From NCBI GenBank assembly GCA_002348005.1, contig DDYQ01000207.1:1-21195 (forward strand): a DNA stretch of 21,195 nt, written 5' to 3'. How positions within the stretch are numbered: the first letter of the stretch is position 1; the number at the start of each line of letters is the position of its first letter. The position numbers and the translations under genes were made by a program. Source of the DNA: Desulfobacteraceae bacterium UBA2230. GTDB lineage: Bacteria; Desulfobacterota; Desulfobacteria; Desulfobacterales; Desulfosarcinaceae. The notes beneath the pieces were generated by a model. The model made no database searches. It saw only the letters and a program-made list of their open reading frames with translations, and was not told where the DNA came from. Below are positions 1,344-10,716 of this stretch, in pieces.

Positions 1344-2475
1344 TTCCAAACTGCCCGATGTGGGTACGACCATCTTTACACTCATGTCCAAAATGGCCGC
1401 CGAGTGCGGCGCCATCAATCTCTCTCAGGGTTTTCCGGACTTCGACACCCACCCGGAGTTGATCGAACGCGTCAACGTCTACATGCGCAGGGGATTCAAT
1501 CAGTATGCGCCCATGCAGGGGGTGCCGGAGCTGCGCCGCCGTATTGCGGACAAGACGCTGCGGATTTACGGCGCCCGGGTGGACCCGGAAACCGAAATCA
1601 CCGTCACCTCCGGCGCCACCGAGGCCCTCTTCAGCGCCATCACGGCGGTTGTGCGTCCCGGCGACGAAGTGATCGTTCTGGAACCGGCTTATGACGCCTA
1701 TGTGCCGGCCGTACGTCTCAATCAGGGCATTGCGGTGCACCTGCCGCTGCGCTTTCCCGACTACCGCATCGACTGGCAGCAGCTGGCGGCGAAGGTTACC
1801 GCGCGCACCCGCCTGATCATCCTGAATTCGCCGCACAATCCCACCGGCACGGTGCTGGACGGCGACGACATCCAGGCCTTGCGCGACCTGAGCGCCCGGC
1901 ACCCTTTTCTGATTCTCAGCGACGAGGTTTACGAGCACATTATCTTCGACGGCCGGCGGCATGAGAGCATGCTGCGCTACCCCGATCTGGCGGAGCGCAG
2001 TTTCGTGGTCAGCTCGTTCGGCAAAACCTATCATACCACCGGCTGGAAAGTGGGCTACTGCATCGCGCCGCGGCCGTTGAGCGTCGAGTTTCAGAAGGTC
2101 CGGCAATTTGTCACCTTTTCCACCAACACCCCCATCCAGATGGCCTACGCCGATTTCATGCTGCAGGAAGAGTTGTTCGCCACCCTGCCCGATTTCTACC
2201 AGCGCAAACGCGATTTGTTCGTGCAGCACCTGTCGGCGGGCCGCCTGCGGCCCCTTCCCTGCTCCGGCACCTATTTCGTCATGGTGGACTACTCGCCGGT
2301 CAGCGGGCTGAGCGACATGCGCATGGCGCAGGAATTGACGCGCCGGTACGGCGTGGCGGCCATTCCGCCCTCCTGCTTCTATCGGGACGGCCAGGATCAC
2401 CACGTTCTGCGCTTCTGTTTTGCGAAAAAAGACGAAACCCTCATCCAAGCCGCGGAGATTTTATGTCGGATTTAA
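1333..2475 (+). CDS. class I/II aminotransferase (methionine/glutamine type)
   Basis: A 380-residue fold-type I PLP aminotransferase, close in style to E. coli YbdL (methionine aminotransferase) and glutamine transaminase K. Visible features: the substrate-side motif LSQGFPDFD (30-38), the NPTG cofactor motif with Asn169, the PLP-ring Asp197 in SDEVYE, and the Schiff-base Lys231 in SSFGKTYHTTGWK. Full length for the family. The start ATG at 1333 sits inside the end of the WYL gene, with GGAG at 1325-1328; the open frame upstream of it (from 1093) is a shadow of the WYL gene. The end overlaps the nitrilase gene by 13 nt. Pairing with an omega-amidase suggests it transaminates 4-methylthio-2-oxobutyrate or aromatic 2-oxoacids using glutamine, giving 2-oxoglutaramate. 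The exact substrate cannot be read from sequence. Confidence 0.92.
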   Translation: MHIDSKLPDVGTTIFTLMSKMAAECGAINLSQGFPDFDTHPELIERVNVYMRRGFNQYAPMQGVPELRRRIADKTLRIYGARVDPETEITVTSGATEALFSAITAVVRPGDEVIVLEPAYDAYVPAVRLNQGIAVHLPLRFPDYRIDWQQLAAKVTARTRLIILNSPHNPTGTVLDGDDIQALRDLSARHPFLILSDEVYEHIIFDGRRHESMLRYPDLAERSFVVSSFGKTYHTTGWKVGYCIAPRPLSVEFQKVRQFVTFSTNTPIQMAYADFMLQEELFATLPDFYQRKRDLFVQHLSAGRLRPLPCSGTYFVMVDYSPVSGLSDMRMAQELTRRYGVAAIPPSCFYRDGQDHHVLRFCFAKKDETLIQAAEILCRI

Positions 2476-3242
2476 CGGTCACCATCGTTCAAACCGAACT
2501 GGCCTGGCAGGCTGTCGAAGACAGCCTGAGCCTGCTGGATTCCAGACTGGACCCCATTGACGCCCCAACCGACCTGGTGATCCTGCCGGAAATGTTTTCC
2601 ACCGGATTCAGCATGGAAGCCCCCCGACTGGCCGAAAGCATGGAAGGCCGCGCCGTGCAGTGGATGCGCGCCAAATCCGCCGATATGGGCGCCGATATCA
2701 CCGGGAGCCTGATCATCACCGAGCAGGGGCGCTTCTATAACCGTCTGGTGTGGGTCAAGCCGGACGGCACGGTGCAGACCTACGACAAGCGGCACCTATT
2801 CGCCTACGCCGGTGAAGACCGCGTCTATACCGCCGGCCAAAGCCGCTTGACCGTCACCCTCAAGGGATGGCGCATCCGACCCTTCATCTGCTACGACCTG
2901 CGCTTTCCCACCTGGTGCCGCAATATCGATCTGGCGTATGATGCCGCCATATTCGTGGCCAATTGGCCGGCGCCGCGCGCCGAACACTGGAAGGCCCTGC
3001 TGCGCGCCCGGGCCATCGAAAACCAGTCCTATGTCATCGGCGTCAATCGGGTTGGCCGGGACGGCAACGGCCTGGAATACAGCGGCGATTCGGTGGCGGT
3101 CGGACCCCAGGGCGCCGTTCTGTTCGAACAGGCCTGGCAGGAATGCAGCACCACGCTGACGCTGCAGCGCAGCGTGCTCGAGGCGTATCGGGCGGCCTTC
3201 CCCTTCTGGAAGGATGCCGACGGGGACCGATCGGCGAGCTGA
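2463..3242 (+). CDS. nitrilase-family omega-amidase (YafV/Nit2-like)
   Basis: A 259-residue cytoplasmic carbon-nitrogen hydrolase. The nitrilase triad is visible as Glu43 (in LPEMFSTGF), Lys109 (in YDKRHLFAYAGED) and Cys143 (in FICYDLRFP). The FSTGF and HLFAYAGED segments are typical of the YafV/Nit2 omega-amidases, which hydrolyse 2-oxoglutaramate or 2-oxosuccinamate to the 2-oxodicarboxylate and ammonia. Length matches that family. Its start lies 13 nt inside the aminotransferase gene, so translation is probably coupled. Known biology: a glutamine-using transaminase makes 2-oxoglutaramate, which this enzyme removes, pulling the transamination forward. The two genes therefore form a plausible methionine-salvage or 2-oxoacid repair pair. 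I infer the substrate from context and do not see it directly. Confidence 0.92.
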   Translation: MSDLTVTIVQTELAWQAVEDSLSLLDSRLDPIDAPTDLVILPEMFSTGFSMEAPRLAESMEGRAVQWMRAKSADMGADITGSLIITEQGRFYNRLVWVKPDGTVQTYDKRHLFAYAGEDRVYTAGQSRLTVTLKGWRIRPFICYDLRFPTWCRNIDLAYDAAIFVANWPAPRAEHWKALLRARAIENQSYVIGVNRVGRDGNGLEYSGDSVAVGPQGAVLFEQAWQECSTTLTLQRSVLEAYRAAFPFWKDADGDRSAS

Positions 3243-3258
3243 TTTCGTCGGGTTTGTG

Positions 3259-3286
3259 TTGCATTTACCGCGTTCAGGAGTATTTT
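3259..3286 (+). promoter_or_regulatory. weak promoter candidate before the radical SAM gene
   Basis: TTGCAT at 3259-3264, a 16-nt spacer and TATTTT at 3281-3286 lie in the 159-nt gap before the radical SAM gene. The match to sigma-70 boxes is partial (3/6 and 4/6). It is the best candidate I see in the gap. Confidence 0.22.
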
Positions 3287-3401
3287 ACTGTATTCAAGCG
3301 GTCAGGATCGGTTCCACCGTTCCCCCAAACGATTTCCCGCTTTGCTTCCACGCCCGGAACCCGCGGCAGACCATCGCTGCTTTCCTGAAGGAGCATAGTC
3401 C

Positions 3402-4880
3402 GTGAATATCCTCCTGCTGTATCCTAAATTCCCCGAAACGTTCTGGTCATTCGCCTACGCACTTAAATTCATCCGCAAAAAATCCGCTTTCCCGCCCCTG
3501 GGATTGCTCACCATAGCCCCCCTGCTGCCGAGTCAATGGGCGCGGCGGCTGGTCGATCTGAATGTCGAACCGCTCACGGACAGCGATCTGCAGTGGGCCG
3601 ACCTGGCATTGATCGGCGGCATGGCCGTGCAGCGCGCCTCCGCCCTGGAATTGATCGAACGCTGCAAGGCCGCCCATGTCAAGGTAGTCGCCGGCGGCCC
3701 GCTTTTCACCAGCGAACCGGAACAGTTTGCAATGGTGGACCACCTGGTGCTGGACGAGGCCGAATTGACCCTGCCGCGCTTCCTGGCCGACGTGCAGAAC
3801 GGGTGCCCGCAGCCGGTTTATCGCGCAGCGGGGTTTTGCGATATCCATGAAACCCCGGCGCCCGAATGGTCGTTGATCGATTTAAGAAAATATGCCTCGA
3901 TGAGCATCCAATTCTCGCGGGGTTGTCCCTTCAACTGCGACTTCTGCAATGTCACCGTGCTCTTCGGCCGTCAGCCGCGCCTGAAGACGCCACGGCAAAT
4001 CACCGAGGAATTGGATCTGATCTATTCGGCCGGCTGGCGCGGCAACATCTTTTTCGTTGACGACAATTTCATCGGCAACAAAAAATACCTCAAGGAGCAG
4101 TTGCTGCCCGTGCTGATCGACTGGCGCCAGGGCAAGAAAGGCTGCGTCTTTTTTACCGAGGCCTCGATCAATCTGGCCGATGATTCCGAACTGATGGAAC
4201 TCATGGTGCGCGCCGGATTCGATTCGGTTTTCATCGGCATTGAATCGCCCGATGAGGCCAGCCTCAGCGAATGCAGCAAGAACCAGAACAAGAACCGCGA
4301 CCTGCTCCAGAGCGTGCGCACCATTCATCGCCGCGGTTTGCAGGTGATGGGCGGCTTCATCGTCGGCTTCGACAGCGACGGTCCATCCATATTCCAGCGC
4401 CAGATCGACTTCATCCAGCGCAGCGGGATCGTGACGGCCATGGTCGGGATGCTGCAGGCGCCTCCCGGGACCCGTCTGTTCGATCGGCTGATGCGCGAAA
4501 ACCGGGTGACCGGCACGTTGTCCGGAGACAACGTGGACGGCAGCACGAACATCCTGCCGGCCATGGGCCTTGAAAAACTCGAGCAGGGATATCGTTCGAT
4601 CATGCGCCACATCTACGCACCCCGGCACTACTACCGGCGCGTGAGGACCTTCCTTAAAGTGTATCAGCCCCCCGAGGTCCGCATTCCGATGGATCTGCAG
4701 CGCGTTCTGGCCCTGGTGCGCTCCAGCCTGTGGCTCGGCATCTGGGGCCGCGAACGGTTCCAGTACTGGCGCCTGCTCACCTGGACGCTGTTTCGCAAAC
4801 CGCGCCTGATGCCCCTGGCGGTCACGCTGACCATCTACGGGTACCATTTCCGCAAGATCTGCCATCTCTATATCTACTGA
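3402..4880 (+). CDS. B12-binding-domain radical SAM protein (DUF4070-like C-terminus)
   Basis: A 492-residue protein of the cobalamin-binding radical SAM class. The N-terminal about 140 residues form a B12-binding Rossmann-like domain (MNILLLYPKFPETFWSFAY; VVAGGPLFTSEPEQF near 95-110). The radical SAM core follows, with its 4Fe-4S cysteines at 175, 179 and 182 (RGCPFNCDFCNV). The region FVDDNFIGN and the late segment beginning PRHYYRRVRTFL are typical of the subgroup that carries a C-terminal DUF4070 domain. The start is GTG at 3402, supported by AAGGAG at 3388-3393 with 8-nt spacing. Members may methylate or rearrange lipids, hopanoids, phosphonates or tetrapyrroles; nothing nearby identifies the substrate. 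It stands 32 nt before the RNA methyltransferase gene and may share its transcript. Confidence 0.92.
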   Translation: MNILLLYPKFPETFWSFAYALKFIRKKSAFPPLGLLTIAPLLPSQWARRLVDLNVEPLTDSDLQWADLALIGGMAVQRASALELIERCKAAHVKVVAGGPLFTSEPEQFAMVDHLVLDEAELTLPRFLADVQNGCPQPVYRAAGFCDIHETPAPEWSLIDLRKYASMSIQFSRGCPFNCDFCNVTVLFGRQPRLKTPRQITEELDLIYSAGWRGNIFFVDDNFIGNKKYLKEQLLPVLIDWRQGKKGCVFFTEASINLADDSELMELMVRAGFDSVFIGIESPDEASLSECSKNQNKNRDLLQSVRTIHRRGLQVMGGFIVGFDSDGPSIFQRQIDFIQRSGIVTAMVGMLQAPPGTRLFDRLMRENRVTGTLSGDNVDGSTNILPAMGLEKLEQGYRSIMRHIYAPRHYYRRVRTFLKVYQPPEVRIPMDLQRVLALVRSSLWLGIWGRERFQYWRLLTWTLFRKPRLMPLAVTLTIYGYHFRKICHLYIY

Positions 4881-6365: not shown

Positions 6366-6923
6366 ATGGTTCGTATCCATTCGAGAACCGTTTATCATGC
6401 ACCCATAAAGGTCGCGCAGACCCCTGACGGCGCCTATGCCCCTTCGCGCGTGCACGACATCAGTCCAGGCGGCCTGTGCTGGGAAACCGACGATGCAGCG
6501 CCGGGGCAGCGTCCAACCGACGATGCAGCGCCGGGGCAGCGTCCAACCGGCTGCAGCGGCGGAGCGGAGAGCCCGGTATTCATCCTGACCACCCGCTATC
6601 AGCCGGGGTCCTTCGGTTTGAACGCCTACCGCTCCTATGTGGCCGTGGTCAAATGGTCCAAACCGGCGGAAAAAGGCCCTCGCGGGCGGTTCCGGGCCGG
6701 AGCGCAAATCGTTTCCAGGAGCCATGGGGTGTTCGAGGACCTTCACAAGACGTGCGATCTGTGTGGCGCCTTGCATCCTCGAACACATCTCGCTCAGTCG
6801 GCGGGGGCCTTTCTGGTGTGCAGGGCCTGTGCAAAGCACCTCGAGGGACTCAGCGGCGATGTGCTTGCAAGTATTCAGCGCTTTGCATCGGATCATCACC
6901 TTTCCCGCGGGAATGCGCCCTGA
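6366..6923 (+). CDS. PilZ-like domain protein with C-terminal zinc ribbon
   Basis: A 185-residue cytoplasmic protein heading the PHA-type cluster. Residues 1-118 resemble a PilZ beta-barrel: the second PilZ motif is present as DISPGG (31-36, DxSxxG) and VAVVKWSKP...RAGAQIV (about 92-116) matches the late strands. The first motif, RxxxR, is not seen, so c-di-GMP binding is doubtful. The C-terminal part has CxxC pairs at 130/133 and 152/155, a four-cysteine zinc-ribbon pattern. A 10-residue unit, DDAAPGQRPT, occurs twice in tandem (42-51 and 52-61) from an exact 30-bp duplication. The start ATG has GAGGAG 7 nt upstream. The KASIII gene follows after 15 nt, so it probably belongs to that operon, perhaps as a regulator or scaffold. 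The function is inferred only from the domain look and position. Confidence 0.68.
   Translation: MVRIHSRTVYHAPIKVAQTPDGAYAPSRVHDISPGGLCWETDDAAPGQRPTDDAAPGQRPTGCSGGAESPVFILTTRYQPGSFGLNAYRSYVAVVKWSKPAEKGPRGRFRAGAQIVSRSHGVFEDLHKTCDLCGALHPRTHLAQSAGAFLVCRACAKHLEGLSGDVLASIQRFASDHHLSRGNAP
6487..6546 (+). repeat. exact 30-bp tandem duplication inside the PilZ-like gene
   Basis: Two identical 30-nt copies lie at 6487-6516 and 6517-6546, and the next three bases continue the unit. The length is a multiple of three, so the frame is kept and a 10-residue proline/acid-rich segment is doubled. The perfect identity suggests a recent event or an assembly artefact. Confidence 0.9.
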
Positions 6924-6938
6924 CGATAAGGGGGGAAC

Positions 6939-7916
6939 ATGTACGCTGCGGCCATCGCATCGACAGGATCCTTTTTGCCTGCCCGGATCGTGCACAACGA
7001 AGATTTCGAGGACTACAACGGCCAGGCCCGAAAACTGATCAGCCAGAAAACCGGCGTTTTTGCGCGTCGCAGGGCCGCCGAAGACGCGTGCACATCCGAC
7101 CTGGGCCTGGAAGCCGCCGGGAACTGTCTTTCGCGTATCGATTTCGACCCCCGTGAGGTCGAAGGCATTATCGTATCCACTTCTTCTCCGGACCGCATGC
7201 AGCCGGCCACCGCGACCCGCATCCAGCACGCGCTCGGGGCACACAATGCCTTTGCTTTCGACATCAATTCGGTCTGCTCCGGAAGTGTTTTCGGCATCGC
7301 CCTGGCCGATGCGCTGATCCGCTCCGGACAGTACCGCAACGTCCTCTTCATCGCATCCGAGCTTTATTCCAGGATTCTGAACCGCAATGACTTCTCGACC
7401 TTTCCCTACTTCGGCGACGGCGCGGGGGCGCTGCTCTTTCAGGCCTCCGAAGCGTCGGCGGGCGTGATCCATTCGATTCTGCGCACCGAGGGCGCCGGCG
7501 CCGACACCATCTGCGTTCCAGGCGGCGGAACCATGCTGCCCTTCGACCGGATGAAGGATCCCAAAAGCGCCTATTTCAGGATGAAGGGCAAGGAAGTCTT
7601 CCAGTTTGCGGTCACCAAAGGAGCCCAGGTAATTCAGGAACTGCTGCTCGCAACGAAGCTGACGGCCGGTGAAGTGAAATGTTTCATCTGTCATCAGGCC
7701 AATGTCAATATCGTCCTCAAGATCGCCGCAGCGTTGGATATCGCTCCGGAAAAGTTCTACATCAATCTTTTCCGCTACGGAAACACCGCGAGTGCTTCGG
7801 TGCCCATTGCTCTGGACGAAAGTATTACCAGAGGCATCCTCCGGAAAGGCGATCTGGCCGTGACGGCGGCTTTCGGCGGGGGGCTCTCCTGGGGCGCCAA
7901 CGTGATACGCATTTGA
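6939..7916 (+). CDS. 3-oxoacyl-ACP synthase III (FabH-type KASIII)
   Basis: A 325-residue thiolase-fold condensing enzyme. The KASIII triad is intact: Cys113 (in DINSVCSGSVFG), His252 (in CHQANVNIV) and Asn282 (in YGNTASASVP); positions and spacing are close to E. coli FabH (112/244/274). The conserved GDGAGA-type loop (GDGAGALLF, 159-167) is present. Such enzymes condense acyl-CoA, commonly acetyl-CoA, with malonyl-ACP to give 3-oxoacyl-ACP. The ATG at 6939 follows a run AAGGGGGG at 6928-6935. Downstream come an ACP, a PHA synthase and a ketoreductase, so it probably supplies 3-oxoacyl-ACP for that pathway and is not the housekeeping FabH. Its acyl chain preference is unknown. Related KASIII enzymes can also act as acyltransferases or make long-chain 3-oxoacids. 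Confidence 0.92.
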   Translation: MYAAAIASTGSFLPARIVHNEDFEDYNGQARKLISQKTGVFARRRAAEDACTSDLGLEAAGNCLSRIDFDPREVEGIIVSTSSPDRMQPATATRIQHALGAHNAFAFDINSVCSGSVFGIALADALIRSGQYRNVLFIASELYSRILNRNDFSTFPYFGDGAGALLFQASEASAGVIHSILRTEGAGADTICVPGGGTMLPFDRMKDPKSAYFRMKGKEVFQFAVTKGAQVIQELLLATKLTAGEVKCFICHQANVNIVLKIAAALDIAPEKFYINLFRYGNTASASVPIALDESITRGILRKGDLAVTAAFGGGLSWGANVIRI

Positions 7917-7995
7917 GAACGGCCGGTTAAAGCGCAAACGCTTCGCCTGGACGCCCGACTGTTTACGAAGTCACCGCACCTTAAAGGAGAAATGA

Positions 7996-8250
7996 ATGAA
8001 TACGACTTTCCAACAAATCGAATCGGGCATCCGGGACATCTTTCCCGATTCGCTGGATCTCGAACTCAAACCCGATACAGTGCTGGGGGACCTGCCGGAC
8101 TGGGACTCTCTGGCGGCGGTCAATCTGCAGGCTTTCCTGGATCAGAATTTCGCTCTCAGCGTGCCCGGCGACCTTCTGCACGAAGAACTGACCCTCCAGG
8201 AGTTGATCGACTTCATCAAAAATCCCGGCAAAATGCAGATGACCGGCTAA
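7996..8250 (+). CDS. stand-alone acyl carrier protein
   Basis: An 84-residue acidic protein with the ACP four-helix pattern. The phosphopantetheine serine is Ser38 in PDWDSLAAVNL (34-44). Housekeeping AcpP proteins usually have GADSLDTVE at this place; the WDSLAAVNL form is more typical of pathway-dedicated carriers. No phosphopantetheinyl transferase is nearby, so a general one must act. The ATG at 7996 has AGGAG at 7985-7989 with 6-nt spacing. Another ATG at 7992 is in a different frame. The gene lies 79 nt after the KASIII gene and 15 nt before the PHA synthase gene. It is likely to carry the malonyl and 3-oxoacyl/3-hydroxyacyl groups used by its neighbours. Confidence 0.92.
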   Translation: MNTTFQQIESGIRDIFPDSLDLELKPDTVLGDLPDWDSLAAVNLQAFLDQNFALSVPGDLLHEELTLQELIDFIKNPGKMQMTG

Positions 8251-8265
8251 GCCGGGGAAAGCGCC

Positions 8266-9936
8266 ATGGACATGAACACGCTGTTCGACCCATTCGACAT
8301 TCTGGGCTCTTTTGCCAAGGTGCACGCCGCCTGGGCCCCGCATTCAACCGAATACCGGCAGCGGCTCGACAGGCTCGGGGAATCCCTGGCCCGGATCAAC
8401 CGCACCGTCCAGGAGCAGATCAACCATCTTCTCGAGCCCCAGCCGGACGCCGGTCCCCGGGAACAGAGCGCATTCGTCCTGGAATGCAGTAAAACCGCTT
8501 CCAACGCCATGCGGGGATACCACCAGGCCTTCGGGCACTGGATGATGGAGATGATCGAAAATACTCCCGAATTGCCCCTGGAAACCCGCCAGCGTTCCGT
8601 CTTCTGGACCGAACAGCTTTTGAAGATGCTGGCGCCTTCGAATTTCTTCTGGACCAACCCAAACGCGGTGAAACGCTGTCTGGACAGCGGCGGCGAGAGT
8701 CTGAAAACAGGATTCGACAACTGGTTGGAGGATTTAATCCGGGGGGATAGCCTGATCAAGCTCGCCGACGAACACGCCTTCAAAGTGGGCGAAAACCTCG
8801 CCGCCACACCCGGCCAGGTGGTTTACCGCAACCCACTGTTCGAACTGATCCAGTATGCCCCGGCGACCGAACGCACCTGGCGCGTTCCCATTGTGATGAT
8901 CCAGCCCTGGATCAACAAGTTTTACATTTTCGATCTTTCGACGGACAACAGCTTTGTCCGCTACCTGATCGGGCAGGGTTTCACCGTCTTTATCATGAGC
9001 TGGAAAAACCCGACGCCGGTCATGCGCCACATCTCGTTTGCCGATTACATGCTCAAGGGCGCTTACAAGGCCGTTGCGGTCGCCGCGAGGATCTGCGGCG
9101 TCCAGCGGGTGCACGCCGCCGGCTACTGCATCGGCGGAACCGTCCTCGCCGCCCTGATGGCCTGGCTGAACCGTGGGCCTGCCGGGGAAATCCCCGTGGT
9201 CGACTGGACCCTCTTTGCAACACTGGTGGACTACTCCCTTCCGGGAAATCTGGCCATGCTCATTTCAGAGTCCTCGATCCAGGCCATTGAGCTGCTGATG
9301 GAAAAAAGCGGCTATCTGGACGCCATGTACCTGGGCATGGCCTTCCGCCTGCTCAATTCCGAAGGTCTTATCTGGCGCTGCCTGGTCAACAACTACCTGT
9401 ACGGCGGAAAACCGCCCAAGTCGGATATGCTTTTCTGGAACAGCGACAGCACGCGTCTGCCCGAAGCGATGTGCTCCTTTTACCTGCGCGAATTTTATTT
9501 CAAAAACCACTTGTCCCGGAAGGATGCGCTCGTTCTGGAGGGCCGCCCCATCGATCTGTCCCGCATCCGGCAGCCACTGTACGCGGTAGGTGCCGAGCAG
9601 GACCACATCTGCCCCTGGGAGGGAACGTTTCAAACCGGTCGCCACGTCGGCGGCCCGGTAAGGTACGTTCTGTCCGCCGAAGGGCACATCACCGGAATCG
9701 TCAATCCGCCGTCGCCCAAATCCCGCAAAAAATACCGCACCGGCACCCTCGACAGCAGGGAGACCGCTCCGGACCAGTGGCTGGATGCCCAAACGGTTCA
9801 AAGGGGCTCCTGGTGGCCCGATTGGGTCGAATGGCTGGCGGAAAGAAGCGACCGGCTGGGTCCTCCGCCCGAAATGGGCGCCGGCCTTTATCCGCCGCTC
9901 GGCCCGGCGCCCGGCACCTATGTGTTCGAGCGCTGA
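8266..9936 (+). CDS. phaC: polyhydroxyalkanoate synthase (class I-like PhaC)
   Basis: A 556-residue PHA synthase: an N-terminal PhaC domain (about 80-250) followed by an alpha/beta-hydrolase catalytic domain. The lipase-like box is GYCIGG with nucleophile Cys288; the triad is completed by Asp446 (in EQDHI) and His474 (in GHITG). The spacings Cys-Asp 158 and Asp-His 28 nearly match Cupriavidus PhaC (319/480/508). Conserved WINKFYIFDL (215-224) and the SWKNPTP stretch (245-251) support full function. It polymerises (R)-3-hydroxyacyl thioesters, normally CoA-linked, into storage polyester on granules. Length fits class I, which needs no PhaE or PhaR subunit, and none is seen. It follows the ACP gene by 15 nt and precedes the SDR gene by 36 nt. 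No phasin, depolymerase or PhaA thiolase lies in the window. Confidence 0.95.
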   Translation: MDMNTLFDPFDILGSFAKVHAAWAPHSTEYRQRLDRLGESLARINRTVQEQINHLLEPQPDAGPREQSAFVLECSKTASNAMRGYHQAFGHWMMEMIENTPELPLETRQRSVFWTEQLLKMLAPSNFFWTNPNAVKRCLDSGGESLKTGFDNWLEDLIRGDSLIKLADEHAFKVGENLAATPGQVVYRNPLFELIQYAPATERTWRVPIVMIQPWINKFYIFDLSTDNSFVRYLIGQGFTVFIMSWKNPTPVMRHISFADYMLKGAYKAVAVAARICGVQRVHAAGYCIGGTVLAALMAWLNRGPAGEIPVVDWTLFATLVDYSLPGNLAMLISESSIQAIELLMEKSGYLDAMYLGMAFRLLNSEGLIWRCLVNNYLYGGKPPKSDMLFWNSDSTRLPEAMCSFYLREFYFKNHLSRKDALVLEGRPIDLSRIRQPLYAVGAEQDHICPWEGTFQTGRHVGGPVRYVLSAEGHITGIVNPPSPKSRKKYRTGTLDSRETAPDQWLDAQTVQRGSWWPDWVEWLAERSDRLGPPPEMGAGLYPPLGPAPGTYVFER

Positions 9937-9972
9937 CAGCGGCCGCGCCGGGCGGTAAACGGGGAGCAGCCA

Positions 9973-10716
9973 ATGGAGATTCGCGATAAGAGAGTGATCG
10001 TCACGGGCGGAGGGGCCGGCATGGGCCTGCGCTTCGCCCTTGACCTGCAACAGCGCGGCGCCCGGGTGTTTGCGCTGGATGTCGTCGAGGCGCCGCTGCA
10101 AAAGCTTCATCAGGAACACGGGATTGAGGGCGCCGTCGTGGATGTCTCCCGCGAGGAGGCCGTGGAGGGTTTTTTTCGCGCGTTCGCCGCTTCGCATGGG
10201 GCGCCGCACGTCCTGATCAATAACGCCGGCATAACCGCCGACGCCCTTCTGGTCCGCAAGGGCAGGCAGTCCGTGCGCACCTTCCCGTCCAGCAGCTGGC
10301 ACAGGGTGCTCGATGTGAACCTCACCGGCGTCTTTCTGTGCGGCCGGGCGGCCGCAGCGGCCATGGTCGGCCAGGGCGTCAGGGGCGTGCTGATCAACAT
10401 CTCTTCGATCAGCCGGGCCGGCAATTACGGTCAAACCAACTACTCCGCCACCAAGGCGGGGGTGGCGGCAATGAGCGTGACCTGGGCCAGAGAACTGGCT
10501 CCCTATGGCATTCGATCGGCTGCCATCGCTCCCGGTTATATCAACACCGAAATGATCGCCAAATTGAATGCCGCCGTGCTGGAAAAGATAACCGCCCAGA
10601 TTCCTCTCGGGCGACTGGGTGAAATGGAAGAGATCTCCCGGGCGGTTCAGTTCATTATCGAATGCGATTTTTACAACGGACGGGTCCTGGAAGTCGACGG
10701 CGGCCACCGCATTTAA
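9973..10716 (+). CDS. SDR ketoreductase (FabG/PhaB-like)
   Basis: A 247-residue classical short-chain dehydrogenase. Cofactor motif TGGGAGMG (11-18), NNAG (83-86), catalytic Asn116 (DVNLTG), Ser144, Tyr157 and Lys161 (NYSATK) are all present, and the C-terminus VDGGHRI is typical of FabG/PhaB relatives. In this context it most likely reduces 3-oxoacyl-ACP or acetoacetyl-CoA to the (R)-3-hydroxyacyl thioester used by the PHA synthase. Asp36 after strand 2 (VFALDVVEA) suggests NADH preference over NADPH, because an acidic residue there usually binds the adenine ribose; this is inference. GGGGAG at 9961-9966 stands 6 nt before the ATG. It is the last gene of the forward cluster. Other SDR roles remain possible. 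Confidence 0.91.
   Translation: MEIRDKRVIVTGGGAGMGLRFALDLQQRGARVFALDVVEAPLQKLHQEHGIEGAVVDVSREEAVEGFFRAFAASHGAPHVLINNAGITADALLVRKGRQSVRTFPSSSWHRVLDVNLTGVFLCGRAAAAAMVGQGVRGVLINISSISRAGNYGQTNYSATKAGVAAMSVTWARELAPYGIRSAAIAPGYINTEMIAKLNAAVLEKITAQIPLGRLGEMEEISRAVQFIIECDFYNGRVLEVDGGHRI

Follow-up and report, generated by a model that had tools for sequence, protein, structure and literature searches.

A β-ketoacyl-acyl carrier protein synthase III (KASIII), an acyl carrier protein (ACP), and a polyhydroxyalkanoate (PHA) synthase (PhaC) that are encoded side by side form an unusual PHA gene cluster, which is conserved though rare. We describe it here in a stretch of 21,195 nucleotides (nt) of DNA from Desulfobacteraceae bacterium UBA2230 (contig DDYQ01000207.1, positions 1 to 21,195), which is termed the window herein. 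Four open reading frames (ORFs) follow one another on the + strand, encoding KASIII (positions 6939 to 7916), the ACP (7996 to 8250), PhaC (8266 to 9936), and a short-chain dehydrogenase/reductase (SDR; 9973 to 10716), with gaps of 79, 15, and 36 nt, respectively. An earlier note, made from the sequence alone, had reported four genes in a row with intact active sites, and both the ORFs and the residues bear this out: KASIII carries Cys113, His252, and Asn282; the ACP carries the phosphopantetheine attachment site Ser38; PhaC carries Cys288, Asp446, and His474; and the SDR carries Ser144, Tyr157, and Lys161. On balance, we favor reading this locus as a PHA operon in which decarboxylative condensation builds the monomer on the operon's own ACP, by whichever route the monomer then reaches PhaC.

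Conservation and rarity of the KASIII-ACP-PhaC block

A scan of genome contigs with PhaC yielded 55 loci, and whole genomes were sampled from the phylum of G001 (395 genomes, queried with PhaC and KASIII) and from the class of G007 (389 genomes, queried with KASIII); genomes and loci are cited by their G and L numbers. PhaC of the window kind was found in 12 relative genomes, and the order KASIII-ACP-PhaC is complete in 8 of them (G001, G003, G006, G008, G214, G337, G413, and G540). The block of G002 is cut by the contig edge inside KASIII, and in G007, KASIII-ACP is close to the end of one contig and PhaC to that of another, so that linkage cannot be judged. G565, which has a KASIII of the same subfamily at a contig end, was not counted among the 12. 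The named relatives belong to the Syntrophobacteraceae, Desulfobacterales, Desulfococcaceae, and unplaced Deltaproteobacteria; since most of them are metagenome bins, absences among them carry little weight.

In the available sequence, neither KASIII nor this ACP was found within 3 kb of any of the 62 other PhaC rows that were compared; the upstream part of that sequence spans at least 1,300 nt in 42 rows and less than 1,300 nt in 20. Among the 62 is the nearest PhaC row outside the clade, L007 (Azoarcus), whose contig ends 317 nt behind PhaC. In the phylum sample, PhaC was found at an E value of 1e-100 or better in 11 of the 395 genomes, at 18 places, of which 3 (in G001, G214, and G337) adjoin KASIII and ACP and 15 adjoin neither. 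At an E value of 1e-90, KASIII was found in 4 of the 395 genomes of the phylum sample and in 5 of the 389 genomes of the class sample. Fourteen contigs of more than 4 kb, the window's own included, are common to the homologues listed for KASIII (120 of 993) and for PhaC (120 of 615), with equal size taken as a proxy for identity among the 57 KASIII and 93 PhaC entries longer than 4 kb. We rejected the idea of chance neighbors, as relatives share the block and none of the 62 other PhaC rows showed it.

The earlier note had made conservation of the gene order KASIII-ACP-PhaC-SDR in relatives a test of its reading. The outcome was positive for the first three genes, whereas the position of the SDR is variable. 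An SDR lies 3′ of PhaC in G001 to G005 and in G008 (about 31 to 35% identical to the window SDR) and 3.3 kb away in G540; in G214 and G337, none was seen over a distance of 1.5 kb, and the stretch read for G413 showed none either. A gene for FabD, over the equivalog cutoff, lies directly 3′ of PhaC in G214 (3 nt) and G337 (43 nt). The SDR thus varies in presence, distance, and sequence, and two genomes have FabD where it would stand. We therefore rejected a strictly conserved unit that includes the SDR, and with it a fixed order of exactly these four genes.

The linked PHA synthases form a clade of their own

The window PhaC carries the PhaC_N domain (PF07167; 175.1 bits, cutoff of 23.7, E value of 1e-51). 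Its best NCBIfam model is that of class I (TIGR01838), the cutoff of which it does not reach (522.8 versus 622.65 bits), and we term it class I-like. The structural model (pLDDT of 88) found full-length and catalytic-domain PhaC structures as its best matches and has the Cys-Asp-His triad in an α/β-hydrolase fold; the triad is intact in 120 of 120 PhaC homologues listed (of 615). When 74 PhaC rows were placed in a quick tree, all 12 that are of the window kind fell into one clade (SH-aLRT of 100), comprising the window and 11 genomes, including two ACP-only rows and the G007 row, which has no upstream DNA. Because the quick tree warned of long branches, a careful tree was built from 43 of the 74 rows; it recovered the same clade (100/99), which all of the 200 bootstrap trees (100%) contained, and it still flagged four long rows. 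Neither tree includes the PhaC of G008, which is split into two pieces and was assigned by its identity (48 and 58%) and its neighbors.

Several residues set this clade apart. Arg361 is found in 12 of 12 clade rows and in all 120 homologues listed, and Arg371 is found in 10 of 12 and 115 of 120, respectively; further changes that are fixed or nearly fixed relative to the 62 other rows are Trp129, Ser386, and Cys403. In our own alignment, with limits taken from PMC5509742, both arginines lie in the CAP subdomain. Such extra arginines could favor an acidic carrier protein, should they lie where it binds.

A KASIII subfamily and a distinct carrier protein

The window KASIII passes the NCBIfam model PRK09352 (319 bits, cutoff of 249), falls just below the TIGR00747 fabH cutoff (287.9 versus 292.1 bits) but passes the broader NF006829, and has both the PF08545 and PF08541 domains over cutoff, with the Cys-His-Asn triad present. 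By the best Pfam and NCBIfam match of each, no thiolase gene is found among the cluster's genes, which thereby depart from the canonical phaCAB set; KASIII itself, as a thiolase relative, also matched Thiolase_N, but less strongly (36.6 bits). The KASIII subfamily is set apart from the FabH-like rows in the tree of these enzymes (100/100). Its 18 rows comprise 11 operon-type rows, 6 unlinked copies, and 1 contig-cut piece.

We take Arg249 of Escherichia coli FabH and Glu41 of AcpP to be contacts through which the two proteins dock, and the E. coli numbering is likewise assumed. The Arg249 position is Asn in 16 and His in 2 of the 18 subfamily rows (Asn257 in the window), compared with Arg in 16 and Gly in 1 of the 17 other KASIII-type rows. 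The homologue list for KASIII (120 of 993, window included) shows an intact triad throughout, with Asn at this position in 113 entries and His in 7. A second position, that of Phe87, is Gln in all 18 subfamily rows (Gln88 in the window), in none of the 17 other rows, and in 115 of the 120 homologues listed. Phe87 is the cap position of FabH (PMC12664062), and Gln at this place may alter the choice of primer.

Six genomes also have a KASIII copy away from PhaC (L061, L062, L063, L064, L065, and L066), which in four cases (L063 to L066) adjoins a pyrD-like gene, named by eye; in G004 and G005, the unlinked copy is the sole one found. In the tree, all six of these copies branch from inside the PhaC-linked rows (96/92 at the joint fork), and thus the PhaC-linked place looks the older one.

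No NCBIfam model matched the window ACP, and its match to PF00550 is marginal (19.8 versus a gathering score of 20.8). Its model (pLDDT of 85.7) is that of a carrier protein by fold: the 50 Foldseek rows listed were carrier proteins or carrier-domain proteins, with probabilities of 0.97 to 1.00 and weak E values (best, 8e-3). All 9 ACPs that were aligned share Ser38, which is the first residue of helix II in the predicted model (residues 38 to 52); a second Asp-Ser-Leu, at residues 18 to 20, is not conserved. All 8 genomes checked encode a separate AcpP over cutoff, and the operon ACPs are absent from the 34 TIGR00517 matches, so that the dedicated ACP directly before PhaC, claimed earlier, proved in each of them to be a protein other than AcpP. 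Thirteen linked ACPs were gathered by similarity to the window ACP; the Glu41 position is Asn in all 13 (Asn43 in the window) versus Glu in 8 of 8 AcpPs. The net charge of the ACP overlaps that of AcpP, and only helix II is less acidic, with 0 to 2 acidic residues in the 13 linked ACPs versus 4 to 5 in the 3 AcpPs counted (of 8). A search for the window ACP in phages gave no match.

Reductase and malonyl loader

The window SDR passes the 3-ketoacyl-ACP reductase model PRK08217 (302 bits, cutoff of 298) and fails both PhaB-type models (NF042966, 136.4 versus 436 bits; TIGR01829, 161.5 versus 302.1 bits). The label FabG/PhaB-like, which it had been given earlier, fits for the ketoacyl-ACP reductase half and not for PhaB. 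The SDR has an Asp in the motif ALDVVEAP, near residue 36, which by rules that we assume to apply suggests NADH rather than NADPH. FabD, which takes the place of the SDR in two genomes, is the malonyl-ACP loader. The enzymes attached to the block, whether ketoreductase or malonyl loader, suit ACP chemistry.

Proposed ACP-borne route

In the proposed route, a FabD, which is encoded in the operon in two relatives but not in the cluster of the window, would transfer the malonyl group from malonyl-CoA to the ACP. KASIII would then condense malonyl-ACP with a short acyl-CoA, with loss of CO2; the SDR would reduce the product to (R)-3-hydroxyacyl-ACP; and PhaC would take over the hydroxyacyl group and polymerize it. 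That the PHA monomer is made on the operon ACP is, in our judgment, likely. The further proposal that PhaC takes the (R)-3-hydroxyacyl group directly from its own ACP is tentative, with the chances leaning slightly against it; it would make these enzymes a class of carrier-protein-dependent PHA synthases, acting in a small polyketide-like assembly line of KASIII, ACP, ketoreductase, and in some cases FabD, with CoA esters no longer the source of the polymer. The evidence for an ACP-borne route consists of the gene families, the intact active sites, the linkage kept among relatives, an operon ACP that differs from AcpP, and the linkage of FabD in two genomes; from this we infer the individual catalytic reactions, the length of the chain, and, most of all, the passage of the monomer from the ACP to PhaC. 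A likely benefit would be that malonyl decarboxylation drives the condensation and that the intermediates are kept apart from the CoA intermediates of β-oxidation, for which numerous thiolases are encoded in these genomes.

Several observations weigh against this route. Thiolases over the family cutoff were found in 8 of 8 genomes checked, where the earlier note had advised looking for a PhaA-type thiolase elsewhere in the genome, and a CoA route is therefore available to these relatives. A second, ordinary PhaC is present in G001, G214, and G337. Accordingly, the earlier preference for an ACP-borne over a CoA route is supported by the ACP-reductase type of SDR, the distinct ACP, and the linked FabD, but not as an exclusive arrangement. 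G004 and G005 keep ACP-PhaC without an adjacent KASIII. No close FabH other than the operon KASIII was found in G214 and G337 (other matches are 23 to 29% identical), and the operon FabD is there the better scoring of two, so that these operon copies may be the cell's ordinary fatty acid starters. The docking pattern is not strict, either: a KASIII of G049 (47 to 49% identical) has Asn at the Arg249 position and adjoins an ACP with Glu at the Glu41 position, and the G049 genome gave no PhaC at an E value of 1e-100. In the literature searched, no assay of any enzyme of this PhaC-linked clade was found, and a docking role of Arg249 or Glu41 is not stated; an inhibitor's acid group is described as touching Arg36 and Arg249 of FabH (PMC10054515). 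The passages on PHA synthases consulted in PMC5509742, PMC10215190, PMC8231600, PMC3896788, and PMC9137849 concern CoA esters.

The outlying G049 KASIII has Phe at the cap position. It is followed by the ACP at a contig end (L167:7977-9313), perhaps as part of another pathway with such an enzyme pair.

Alternative explanations

The alternative that survives best, although we consider it unlikely, overlaps the reading that we favor: the monomer would be made on the ACP but then moved to CoA, either through a transacylase activity of this KASIII or with the help of a PhaG-type enzyme encoded elsewhere, and PhaC would work on the CoA ester. Such conversion of (R)-3-hydroxyacyl-ACP to the CoA ester for a PHA synthase is described for FabH and PhaG, and the FabH Phe87 position, which is Gln in all 18 subfamily rows here, is tied there to PHA monomer length (PMC8231600). 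The retained PhaC fold and triad also agree with a CoA substrate. This explanation gives no special reason, however, for the tight pairing of ACP and PhaC, which are 15 nt apart in the window and stay together in G004 and G005 without KASIII.

It is improbable that KASIII makes acetoacetyl-CoA from acetyl-CoA and malonyl-CoA in the manner of NphT7, with the SDR and PhaC acting on CoA esters and the ACP in a side role. NphT7 serves as an acetoacetyl-CoA synthase in engineered pathways, and we presume that it is akin to KASIII; moreover, the Arg at what we take to be the ACP-docking position of FabH is absent here. Against this stand an ACP distinct from AcpP that is kept beside the block (13 rows, with another AcpP in 8 of 8 genomes) and the ACP loader FabD, which joins the block in two genomes.

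We also assign a low probability to the possibility that this PhaC homologue transfers hydroxyacyl groups to some other acceptor or makes short oligomers rather than storage PHA. The clade differences that are fixed or nearly so (Trp129, Ser386, Cys403, and Arg361) and the score below the class I cutoff would fit such a change of function, and no phasin gene was recognized in the window, where no phasin search of all ORFs was made. The triad, however, is intact in each of the 120 PhaC homologues listed (of 615), and a small protein of the G001 cluster is 50% identical to one beside the second PhaC of that genome, though it belongs to no Pfam or NCBIfam family.

Very unlikely is the explanation that housekeeping genes for fatty acid initiation adjoin PhaC without a shared pathway. 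In its favor, G214 and G337 may have no close FabH besides the operon KASIII and no better FabD than that of the operon, and six genomes have an unlinked KASIII copy. Against it stand the separate AcpP in 8 of 8 genomes and the unlinked KASIII copies, which nest in the PhaC-linked tree as a later duplicate would. KASIII as the cell's only FabH was rejected for 6 of the 8 genomes, which have separate FabH-like enzymes, G214 and G337 being excepted.

Neighboring genes

A gene for a PilZ-like protein with a Cys-rich tail (window positions 6366 to 6923, + strand) ends 15 nt before KASIII and may be where the transcription unit begins. Similar genes lie 5′ of KASIII at L110:6267-6782 and L112:4684-5205 (the latter read by eye). 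The window protein has no Pfam match; it is 31% identical to the protein at L110:6267-6782, which has the PilZ domain PF07238. Its place before KASIII hints at control of the operon linked to c-di-GMP. Scans found 2 promoter-like sites, with 1.2 expected, and 4 terminator-like sites, with 4.9 expected, which is uninformative. Plasmid carriage was not indicated: matches were short, and no record had one place covering 80% of the query.

The small proteins of G001 (L001:9698-9967 and L099:6847-7251; 89 and 134 amino acids) adjoin its two PhaC genes; they are related over 78 residues, neither has a Pfam or NCBIfam match, and they possibly represent a new phasin-like family. In L006, a DUF3141-TerB fusion (positions 1852 to 4011) is encoded upstream of the KASIII-ACP-PhaC block, beside a second PhaC-like gene.

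Comparison with known systems

Across the open-licence literature searched, no titles or abstract openings describe a KASIII-ACP-PhaC operon, and the many Burkholderia phaC gene contexts reviewed in the available part of PMC8231600 include none with a KASIII-ACP pair. PHA synthases are described as enzymes of CoA esters; if the ACP-borne route is true, PHA storage would be joined to carrier-protein chemistry, and loss of CO2 would pull the condensation in place of the unfavorable thiolase step. Storage synthesis could then be separated from fatty acid breakdown in bacteria rich in β-oxidation enzymes. Should a PHA synthase use ACP thioesters, ACP-based pathways could feed new monomers to PHA synthases.

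The canonical phaCAB system, which makes class I polyhydroxybutyrate from CoA esters, shares with the window the PhaC fold, its triad, and an adjoining SDR ketoreductase, but the window has KASIII and an ACP in place of the PhaA thiolase, and its SDR is of the ketoacyl-ACP reductase type and not PhaB. As in the PhaG route of Pseudomonas (PMC9137849), the monomer would derive from an ACP-bound 3-hydroxyacyl intermediate; here, however, a separate carrier protein and a starter enzyme are linked to phaC. Engineered E. coli strains that combine FabH (or FabG) with a PHA synthase (PMC8231600 and PMC3896788) resemble the cluster in that a KASIII feeds a PHA synthase, whereas the window cluster is natural and conserved and has its own ACP, with FabD in two genomes. 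A comparable enzyme pair serves in type II polyketide priming (PMC12664062), in which a FabH-like Cys-His-Asn ketosynthase and a pathway ACP start the chain; in the window, no recognized chain-extending ketosynthase lies beside this pair, and its partner is a PHA synthase.

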